Below the pieces are notes generated by a model. That model saw only the letters and a list, made by a program, of their open reading frames with translations, was not told where the DNA came from and searched no databases. A DNA stretch of 22,942 nucleotides from the IMG/VR virus record IMGVR_UViG_3300037193_000881, positions 1 to 22,942 of that record; one strand, written 5' to 3'. Below, piece by piece: positions 3,351 through 5,913 of this stretch. The position numbers and the translations under genes were made by a program. Every line of letters begins with the position of its first letter. Positions within the stretch are counted from its first letter, which is position 1. The stretch is from a virus.

Positions 3351-3569
3351 ATGGCAATAGGCAGAGCTAAAGCGGAAGAGTACGCGGGAGACATTCGCAT
3401 AGCGATTGAGTACCTAGAGGGCGTGGCGGAATACCTCGATCAATTGGCGGATGAGGAAATCAAGGGGGAGGATCGGCAGAGCATTGCCGAGGAACTACAG
3501 AGCCAAGCCGATGAGGCAATGGGCAGCGTCGATGAGGCTCGCAAGATAGTGAGCCGGCTCGGAAGCTAG
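3351..3569 (+). CDS. acidic helical protein, probably leaderless
   Basis: From ATG 3351 the protein has 72 residues, is rich in Glu, Asp and Ala, and reads as two or three amphipathic helices (AEEYAGDIRIAIEYLEGVAE, then RQSIAEELQSQADEAMGSVD), a likely helical hairpin or coiled coil. Starts at 3342 and GTG 3303 are in frame, but the first overlaps the -10 box and the second lies before the promoter. No Shine-Dalgarno precedes 3351, consistent with a leaderless message. The function is unknown. A terminator-like hairpin follows, so this may be a single-gene transcript. Confidence 0.65.
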   Translation: MAIGRAKAEEYAGDIRIAIEYLEGVAEYLDQLADEEIKGEDRQSIAEELQSQADEAMGSVDEARKIVSRLGS

Positions 3570-3590
3570 GCTCACGCCAGCCGGGTAAGG

Positions 3591-3650
3591 CAGACGGAGC
3601 CGACGGAGGAGAGCGAGAGGGCGCCCTTAGGGGCGCTCTCTGCGCGTCTG
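3591..3650 (+). terminator. terminator-like nested hairpin
   Basis: An outer pair CAGACG (3591-3596) with CGTCTG (3645-3650) encloses a strong inner hairpin. In the inner hairpin GAGAG and CGCCC (3615-3626, with a two-base GG bulge) pair with GGGCG and CTCTC (3631-3640) around the loop TTAG. It lies 20 bases after the stop of the gene at 3351. There is no T-run, so it may be a T-less actinobacterial terminator or another structured RNA element. Confidence 0.5.
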
Positions 3651-3779
3651 AGGGCCGGCGCCGGCACCGCCTAGAGCATCGAGCAATCTCCTTCCTCTGA
3701 GGTGGCGGTACCGCTGGCGCCGGCTCACGAGGTATCGGCACTCGCGGCATGCCGGCTGAGTCGATGGTCCTACCCGCGT

Positions 3780-3844
3780 GGCACGTTATGTGCCAGTGCG
3801 GTTACAGTGTTGCCCGATCGCTTGGCTCTGGCACGAAATGTGCC
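3780..3844 (+). promoter_or_regulatory. paired operator-like inverted repeats with a possible promoter between them
   Basis: Two 15-bp inverted repeats of the form GGCACG-NN-ATGTGCC lie exactly 50 bp apart, at 3780-3794 (GGCACGTTATGTGCC) and 3830-3844 (GGCACGAAATGTGCC). The first extends to TGGCAC...GTGCCA. Between them TACAGT (3803-3808) fits the TANNNT -10 consensus, though no good -35 is seen; if used, one repeat would cover the -35 zone and the other would sit about 15 bases downstream of the start. This geometry suits a repressor dimer pair that can loop the DNA. The likely regulated operon begins at 3894. Confidence 0.5.
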
Positions 3845-3893
3845 GCATGCTCTCTTGGCGCCCGCACGAGCGGGCCGGCAGAGAGGTCACGAG

Positions 3894-4085
3894 ATGAGCA
3901 CCAAGGCAAAGACAAGCGAGCTACGCAAAGGCGATCGGGTGATCGTTGGCGAGCGTGAGCTTGAGGTTGTGGCGGTTAGCCGTTGGGCGTCAAACGCCCT
4001 CACGTTCGATGTCATCCTCGCGGATGCGGCAGGCAAGCGTTACGCCATGATCAAGCCGGCAAGCGCCAAGTTTGTGAGGGCGTGA
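3894..4085 (+). CDS. small basic protein, first gene of the regulated operon
   Basis: ATG 3894 follows AGAGG (3882-3886) at seven bases. The 63-residue product has a short basic lead (MSTKAKTSELRKGD) and then a beta-rich segment with GDRVIVGERELEVVAVSR and KRYAMIKPASAKFVRA, which resembles a small SH3-like barrel (KOW type). That fold call is a guess from strand pattern. It lies one base upstream of the helix-turn-helix gene's ATG. It may bind nucleic acid or help its neighbour, but no motif proves this. Confidence 0.7.
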   Translation: MSTKAKTSELRKGDRVIVGERELEVVAVSRWASNALTFDVILADAAGKRYAMIKPASAKFVRA

Positions 4086-4086
4086 G

Positions 4087-4449
4087 ATGAGCGAGAACAA
4101 CCGCACCAACCCTGTCCCGAAGATGAGCACCGAAGATGGCGCTTGGGCGGCACTAGAGGTCGCACGCCAGCGCCTTGCCCTCGCTGAGCGAGCGCGAGAG
4201 GTCGCCATCCTCGATGCACTGAACGTTGGCCTATCGGGCCGAGCCATCGCATCGGCGCTTGGCATCTCACATACCCAAGTCCAACGCGTTGCCGCCAAGG
4301 CGAAGCCGGCAACCGAAATGCGCAACCTCTCGTGCGGTCATACCGCTGAGGTCGCGACCGATTGGCAAAGCCAAGTGTTCTGCGTCGAGTGCAAGGCGTA
4401 CAAACTTGGTCCCAAGGCAGATACCAACCGAGAGAGCAACGACCGATGA
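4087..4449 (+). CDS. helix-turn-helix DNA-binding protein with zinc knuckle
   Basis: This 120-residue protein starts at ATG 4087, one base after the previous stop. Residues 47-71 (VGLSGRAIASALGISHTQVQ and following) form a clear helix-turn-helix of the sigma-region-4/resolvase-like type: GRAIASALGIS is helix-turn and HTQVQRVAAK the recognition helix. It is preceded by a long helix (about 18-45) suited to dimerisation. The C-terminus has CGH (83-85) and CVEC (99-102), a CxH-X13-CxxC zinc site. A start at 4123 is possible. It is the natural candidate to bind the paired repeats upstream of its own operon, as an autorepressor; this is inferred from position only. Its stop overlaps the next gene as ATGA. 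Confidence 0.75.
   Translation: MSENNRTNPVPKMSTEDGAWAALEVARQRLALAERAREVAILDALNVGLSGRAIASALGISHTQVQRVAAKAKPATEMRNLSCGHTAEVATDWQSQVFCVECKAYKLGPKADTNRESNDR
4104..4118 (+). repeat. 15-bp direct repeat, first copy (second copy 4451-4465)
   Basis: CACCAACCCTGTCCC occurs at 4104-4118 and again at 4451-4465, near the start of two adjacent genes, encoding the shared peptide TNPVP in both. It may reflect a small duplication of a gene start; it has no known function. Confidence 0.6.
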
Positions 4450-5132
4450 GCACCAACCCTGTCCCCAACCCGCGAGGCGATGTCGGCTTTGACCTTGGCC
4501 AGCCGGTCGACGTGCCGGCAAGCGCCGGCACTGAGGCGATCTCGCACAACCCCGAGCGAGGGCGTGAGCCGCTAGAGCTTGAGCCTGCCGCCGCGCCGGC
4601 GCCGGCAGAGACGCCCTCTGTGGCGCCCGTAGAGGCGCCCGAAGCGGTTGCCGTGCTCGACGTAGCCGAGCCGGCGCCCGTGGCGCCCTCTGAGGCTCCT
4701 AGCGCCCTCACTGAGACGGTTGCTGCCGTGCCTGTCCCAAGCGCCGGCACGCTGCCGGTAACCGGCTCTGAGGCGACTACAACGGCTCTCCTCGCCTTGG
4801 CCCTCATCCTCGCTGGCGTGCTCGCCCTCGTGCGCTCACGCACGCTCACGCGGCGCGCCATGCCAGCCGTCGCCCTGGCGGTCGCTCTCGGCGCCAGCGC
4901 TTGCGGCGGTAGCGAGCCTGACGCCAAGTCGAGCGACGGCAAGCGTGAGTACTGCAATCCCGAAATTGTGACGCACGTAACCGCTGGCTACGCCAACGAC
5001 AGTAGAGGCAATCGGAAATGGAAGCCGGCGCACAACGTGACCGAGACGGATTGCTTTCGCTGCAATCCCGATCACATCACGCGGACGTTCTACGACGATG
5101 AGGAGCGCTACGTATGCAATACGCCTAGCTAG
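4446..5132 (+). CDS. membrane protein joining an LPxTG sorting signal to a lipoprotein-like signal and four-cysteine domain
   Basis: This 228-residue protein starts at ATG 4446, overlapping the previous stop (ATGA). Residues 1-102 are a Pro/Ala/Glu-rich, unstructured segment without a signal peptide. LPVTG (103-107) is followed by a hydrophobic span (112-129) and a basic tail RSRTLTRR, the full layout of a sortase cell-wall sorting signal. Instead of ending, the chain runs into a second hydrophobic span (139-150) and ASACGG with Cys153, the layout of a lipoprotein lipobox, and then a hydrophilic domain with cysteines 170, 203, 206 and 224. An in-frame GTG (4830) or ATG (4860) could start a separate lipoprotein, but neither has a visible ribosome site. 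It may act at the cell surface, for example in exclusion of other phages, but this is inference. Confidence 0.7.
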   Translation: MSTNPVPNPRGDVGFDLGQPVDVPASAGTEAISHNPERGREPLELEPAAAPAPAETPSVAPVEAPEAVAVLDVAEPAPVAPSEAPSALTETVAAVPVPSAGTLPVTGSEATTTALLALALILAGVLALVRSRTLTRRAMPAVALAVALGASACGGSEPDAKSSDGKREYCNPEIVTHVTAGYANDSRGNRKWKPAHNVTETDCFRCNPDHITRTFYDDEERYVCNTPS

Positions 5133-5143
5133 CTAAGCCGAGA

Positions 5144-5184
5144 CGCGAAACGAGGGCCGGTCATTGCGACCGGCCCTCTTCGCG
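5144..5184. terminator. bidirectional intrinsic terminator between convergent genes
   Basis: CGCGAA (5144-5149) and GAGGGCCGGTC (5152-5162) pair with GACCGGCCCTC (5168-5178) and TTCGCG (5179-5184) around the five-base loop ATTGC, with only AC bulged on one side. It sits between the stops of the plus-strand operon (5132) and the minus-strand lysis genes (5190), so it can end transcription from both sides. T-runs are short. Confidence 0.8.
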
Positions 5185-5189
5185 TTCCG

Positions 5190-5546
5190 TCACTCTCGAT
5201 GCTGGCGCAGCGTCGATACCTCATCCCGCAATTGCCGCACCTCGATACGTGCAAGCTCAAGCTCTCGCTTAAGAGCGGCAATCTCAATGCGTGCACCGTC
5301 AAGGTGGTCGCGCAAGCTCTCCTCAATGCGTGAGCTTTCTTGTCGCTGCGTGCGGTAGTCGGCTATGTCCGCCCGGTATAGCTCGCTCAACTCATGCAAT
5401 TGATCGTAGGCGGTTTGGCCAAGTTGCAACTCTGTCGGCTTGCGTTGGATGAGTGCAACGGCAATGCCAACGAGGGCGCCACCTACCAACCCGAGAGCAC
5501 CAACAAGAGGCGAGTTGTACCAAGCCGCCAAGAGGTAGCTAGTCAA
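5190..5546 (-). CDS. lysis-cassette membrane protein with coiled coil
   Basis: The chosen start is TTG 5546, preceded by GAGGAGG within the end of the holin gene; it overlaps that gene by eight bases. The 118-residue product has one membrane helix (about 12-33, PLVGALGLVGGALVGIAVAL) and then an uninterrupted charged helix from about residue 40 to the end with heptad-like spacing (ELELARIEVRQLRDEVSTL), a long coiled coil. In actinobacteriophages a one-span protein of this kind often follows the holin and may be a second holin or a late-lysis accessory protein. The exact role cannot be told from sequence. It is the last gene of the late operon. Confidence 0.7.
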   Translation of the reverse strand: MTSYLLAAWYNSPLVGALGLVGGALVGIAVALIQRKPTELQLGQTAYDQLHELSELYRADIADYRTQRQESSRIEESLRDHLDGARIEIAALKRELELARIEVRQLRDEVSTLRQHRE

Positions 5547-5913
5547 GGCGTATGACCTCCTCTGGCGGCTCTGTGTGCCTGGCACTGGCCATCGGTCGCA
5601 AGTGCGTCGAGCGGAATCGGGCGGCACGGATAAAGAGGAAAGCCGCCATGACGTGAGCGACGTACGCCAGCGCGGCAGCGGGCGAGATCAAGTCGCCATA
5701 AGTCTCGGCGCCAAGCACCTCAAGCTCATGGCCAAGCGAGAGCACCGCAACCGAGCAGAGTACGGCGGAAATGAATAGGCGCCCGAGCGTGGAATCTTTC
5801 GGCGGGTAATCACGCTTGATGCTTACCCATACCGCATAGACGCTGGCGACCGCTGCCGCTACCCGGCACATCATGATGAGCGTATTATTCTGTCCCACAA
5901 AGAATGAGCGCAT
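5539..5913 (-). CDS. holin (three membrane spans)
   Basis: This 124-residue protein starts at ATG 5913, six bases after the endolysin stop. Hydrophobic segments at about 10-31, 44-61 and 78-96 predict three membrane helices, followed by a basic, hydrophilic C-terminus (IRAARFRSTHLRP). Size, number of spans and position directly after the endolysin point to a holin, which makes the inner-membrane lesion that releases the endolysin. Holins share little sequence, so this rests on context and topology. Confidence 0.7.
   Translation of the reverse strand: MRSFFVGQNNTLIMMCRVAAAVASVYAVWVSIKRDYPPKDSTLGRLFISAVLCSVAVLSLGHELEVLGAETYGDLISPAAALAYVAHVMAAFLFIRAARFRSTHLRPMASARHTEPPEEVIRLD

Follow-up and report, generated by a model that had tools for sequence, protein, structure and literature searches.

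PMC11980579, citing Navarre and Schneewind 1994, reports that a sorting tag can work from a position in the middle of a protein. The same paper describes the myxobacterial protein MXAN_5598, which has an internal MYXO-CTERM tag and for which an origin by gene fusion is suggested. The phage protein described here shares with MXAN_5598 a C-terminal-type sorting signal placed mid-protein, whereas MXAN_5598 is a bacterial host protein with another signal and another enzyme, and has no lipobox behind the signal. Ltp proteins of Streptococcus thermophilus phages are superinfection-exclusion lipoproteins in which a spacer carries an outer domain of two repeats (PMC3952083). The present protein is likewise phage-encoded, and its sequence shows a lipobox followed by a short linker and then a CNP repeat; in contrast, the signal of Ltp is an ordinary N-terminal one, and Ltp lacks LPxTG. 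A tblastn search of phages gave no meaningful match, and no sequence similarity to known Ltp-type members was found. A third point of comparison is the NCBIfam profile NF058595, which is described only as 'lipo-invert putative C-terminal anchoring domain'; a literature search for a paper naming it found none.

The locus and its reading frame

The window, meaning the whole stretch of DNA analysed, is a 22,942-base IMG/VR viral record and represents a fragment. Its structural genes are siphovirus-like, and all the portal matches listed are to phages of Actinobacteria (Streptomyces, Thermobifida, Arthrobacter and others). Actinobacteria hosts possess sortase as well as Lgt and LspA. Scans for close phage relatives by tape measure, tail, capsid, HTH, terminase and endolysin found few or none. 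The gene of interest is the last in a unit of three, after a 63-aa ORF and a helix-turn-helix (HTH) protein. The features of this region are as follows.

3610..3648, + strand: hairpin ahead of the unit that may terminate the preceding operon, putative terminator (z -2.9)
3779-3795 and 3829-3845: two near-identical 17-bp dyads, TGGCACGTTATGTGCCA and TGGCACGAAATGTGCCG, spaced 50 bp from start to start, putative operators
3894..4085, + strand: 63-aa ORF, first of the three-gene unit, with a good Shine-Dalgarno match
4087..4449, + strand: gene for the HTH protein, which carries a CxxC-type tail at its C-terminus; it precedes the LPxTG gene in the unit
4446..5132, + strand: whole LPxTG ORF, 228 aa, with an ATGA overlap with the upstream HTH gene
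4446..4751, + strand: residues 1-102, Pro/Ala/Glu-rich N-tail without a signal peptide
4752..4766, + strand: LPVTG motif, residues 103-107
4773..4832, + strand: first membrane span, about residues 110-129, strong
4833..4859, + strand: basic loop RSRTLTRRA, residues 130-138, four Arg
4860..4904, + strand: short second hydrophobic stretch, residues 139-152, closing with the lipobox-like GASAC at Cys153
4905..5129, + strand: soluble C-terminal part (residues 154-228) with four Cys and two copies of a CNP-containing unit; a beta-rich structure is predicted with low confidence
5140..5187, strand not assigned: strong hairpin between convergent units, putative bidirectional terminator (z about -6)

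The 228-aa protein of the first-pass annotation is the translation of 4446-5132. Its start at 4446 is supported by the overlap of the ATG with the HTH gene stop (ATGA) and by a modest Shine-Dalgarno score of -4.1 kcal/mol. In codon statistics this frame beats the other five, and it does so in each of the segments 1-100, 101-138 and 139-228, so the ORF codes in a single frame across both halves. The large antisense ORF at 4040-4957 has a lower codon score and was for this reason not accepted as coding.

The neighbouring DNA-binding gene and the paired operator-like region, both noticed earlier, are real. The HTH protein matches PF13384 with E=5.7e-5, slightly under the cut-off, and the dyads at 3779-3845 lie upstream of all three genes as putative operators of an autoregulated unit. 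A consensus scan of 3400-5900 found no sigma-70-type promoter; from the layout, we infer that the unit has a promoter of its own. The LPxTG gene has the highest GC and GC3 among the 37 genes of the window (z 2.8 and 2.4), and part of the total GC is due to its Pro/Ala-rich tail. With this GC3, and at the end of a unit that has its own dyads and flanking hairpins, it resembles an independently expressed phage 'moron'. A near-perfect 19-bp direct repeat, GCACCAACCCTGTCCCNAA, at 4103-4121 and 4450-4468 opens both the HTH and the LPxTG genes and gives TNPVP in both. On the opposite strand at 5190-5913, two small membrane proteins follow the endolysin, one of them a span with a coiled-coil-like tail; their genes are convergent with the LPxTG gene and are probable lysis genes.

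Within the collections searched, the LPxTG gene is an orphan, one of a kind. No homologue was found for the whole protein and its C-terminal part in viral contigs and phages, for the span region in phages and plasmids, or for the whole unit 3600-5200 by blastn. The C-terminal part also had no genuine homologue in plasmids and bacterial genomes (one close-relative scan). The only bacterial-genome tblastn match to this part, L014:5887-6243, was discarded as chance because it is antisense to an ftsZ-like gene. Separate searches of the two parts, as suggested in the first-pass annotation, gave the expected profile matches for residues 1-138 and about 132-181 (weak for the latter), and no stand-alone homologue in these collections.

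These results bear on a recent fusion or acquisition, in which a host surface-protein end was joined to a lipoprotein start in a possibly non-functional product. The orphan status, the independent position between hairpins and the top GC and GC3 values would fit such an origin. However, the Pro/Ala-rich tail itself raises GC, the codon signature is uniform over both halves, and searches of phages, plasmids, viral contigs and one bacterial-genome scan yielded neither a donor gene nor a stand-alone homologue of either half. The high GC3 agrees with acquisition, not specifically with the fusion of host-derived genes that had been proposed, and a fusion or acquisition of this kind is considered improbable.

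The sortase-type signal and the N-terminal tail

A complete sortase-type signal lies in mid-chain, as first noticed: translation, profiles and residue analysis all give LPVTG, then a span, then RSRTLTRR in the correct order. Shuffling of residues 1-112 placed an LPxTG among the 16 residues ahead of the span in only 0.07% of trials. Against TIGR01167, with its cut-off of 15.9 bits, residues 1-138 alone reach 17.4 bits, the full-length protein falls just under the cut-off at 15.8 bits, and the PF00746 (Pfam) score of residues 1-138 is 19.1 bits (cut-off 20). TIGR01167 gave no match in 13 other records. A TIGR01167 match alone is weak evidence, since the model also matches some genomes that are not known to have classical sortases. 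The weight therefore rests on the exact LPxTG motif with its correct order and spacing, not on the profile match. As in known LPXTG sorting signals (TIGR01167, PF00746), the motif comes first, followed by a hydrophobic span and then by a basic tail; unlike them, this signal is not C-terminal, with about 90 residues after the first basic loop, and the protein has no N-terminal Sec signal peptide.

The reported absence of a signal peptide holds, because no hydrophobic segment precedes residue 105, and extension to an upstream TTG brings in no signal peptide either. The N-tail up to residue 110 has 3 basic residues, all before residue 41, and about 16 acidic ones; the last 60 residues ahead of span 1 carry no positive charge.

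The lipoprotein-type signal and the joined region

The chain continues, as had been described, through a second hydrophobic span to the lipobox-like Cys153 and a soluble part with four Cys (170, 203, 206 and 224). Span 2 is 15 residues long, and both its hydrophobicity and its rough insertion energy are marginal, closer to a lipoprotein h-region than to a complete span. Cys153 is followed by GGS, as in lipoproteins, and about 1-3% of shuffled sequences have a lipobox pattern in the matching region. Residues 132-181 alone weakly match the N-termini of actinobacterial lipoprotein families (best E=0.008). Segment 130-155, when translated from GTG 4830, has the basic n-region, h-region and lipobox with Cys of a bacterial lipoprotein signal; within the 228-aa ORF this signal is internal.

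One alternative is a plain two-span membrane protein that is not processed at all, LPVTG and GASAC being chance or vestigial motifs. It would explain the missing signal peptide, Ala-rich hydrophobic segments match the anchor models in many genomes, and homologues that could show conservation of LPVTG or Cys153 were not found. Yet an LPxTG at exactly this place is rare in shuffles (0.07%), and the second stretch would make a short and marginal membrane span, with GGS after its lipobox as in lipoproteins. This alternative is regarded as somewhat unlikely.

It was also proposed that one frame gives two products, a long protein and a separate lipoprotein from an internal start. GTG 4830 and ATG 4860 are both in frame with the ORF, and the sequence read from GTG 4830, MRSRTLTRRAMPAVALAVALGASACGG, satisfies the Gram-positive lipoprotein pattern (G+LPP) over segment 130-155. 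The subsequence matches lipoprotein N-termini. In contrast, Shine-Dalgarno-like pairing is only -1.5 kcal/mol at GTG 4830 and -1.7 kcal/mol at ATG 4860 versus a window-gene median of -5.4, whereas 4446 and most genes have some, and a product from ATG 4860 would lack the basic n-region. A product from GTG 4830 would fit the lipoprotein pattern, but the internal-start reading is weak because both positions lack a ribosome-binding site, and two products from this frame are unlikely.

NF058595 aligns to residues 102-158 with E=7.8e-5 and 23.0-24.1 bits against a curated cut-off of 37 bits. In truncated versions, most of the score proved to stem from the two spans, the loop between them and the lipobox, and not from LPVTG. 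The profile covers span 1, the basic loop, span 2 and the lipobox region of the phage protein, whereas the score of 23 is far below the cut-off and also under the background. At E <= 0.1, all 14 control genomes match, and four matches in 297 other genomes reach 27.6-29.6 bits; none in 13 other records is over the cut-off. The match, at first a key lead, was lowered after this background test, and since background genomes reach equal scores it is a lead about architecture and not membership. The midcut-by-XrtH profile NF033207 gave 16.7-19.7 bits against its curated cut-off of 45.

Predicted topology, processing and surface role

The best explanation, a tentative one with a probability of about 0.42, is a single polypeptide with both ends outside and a hairpin between them, whose second span is of lipoprotein type and which would be a lipid-anchored, Cys-rich and likely surface protein. 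The two-span hairpin with both ends on the same side, one of the readings first offered, is the best supported, given the charge pattern, strong span 1 and marginal span 2. The charge pattern predicts an N-out, loop-in, C-out arrangement: span 1 would insert so that the acidic N-tail faces outward and the RSRTLTRR loop inward, and the second short stretch would go back outside, as a lipoprotein signal would. A lipoprotein signal is favoured over a true second span because this stretch is short and weakly hydrophobic. Since it would be oriented like a lipoprotein signal, Lgt could lipidate Cys153 and LspA could cleave ahead of it, and the outer face would keep a 76-residue lipid-anchored Cys-rich domain.

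In a host with a matching sortase, LPVTG might also be cut, the N-tail joined to the wall and the hairpin between discarded. This cut is possible but less certain because a 108-residue tail must cross without a signal peptide, and export of the N-tail is a precondition for any sortase action on LPVTG. In E. coli ProW, a long acidic N-tail of 100 residues is exported without a signal peptide. A true double-anchor precursor, in which sortase would yield a wall-linked N-half and Lgt/LspA a lipoprotein C-half, with the hairpin discarded and no classical signal peptide involved, is unlikely to be the case. As cell-wall and lipid signals both lie mid-chain, the host surface may receive from the virus two pieces with different anchors. 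If both signals work, one chain from one gene would give these two pieces. One membrane hairpin could then serve a sortase signal and a lipoprotein signal together, export of a long N-tail would not require a signal peptide, and the phage would have a compact route to altering the host surface. It would also be a real example of an architecture named only as putative in NCBIfam.

Under the single-polypeptide reading, the protein would be expressed from a small unit under separate control, and its most likely role would be at the cell surface, for instance in exclusion. Roles in lysogeny, exclusion or conversion, put forward earlier, may be inferred at most. A search of defence families gave no assignment for the LPxTG gene. 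Exclusion is a plausible guess by analogy with the Ltp lipoproteins, and only a guess because the record is a fragment and no gene in the window was recognised as an integrase.

For the domain predicted to remain outside, AlphaFold models of the protein are of low confidence, and a fold search with the uncertain C-domain model gave no match at E <= 0.001. The tail contains two CNP[DE] units, and 0.5% of shuffles score as high at the chosen split. A 12-bp direct repeat at 4952-4963 and 5060-5071 encodes these C-terminal CNP units, which suggests an internal duplication.
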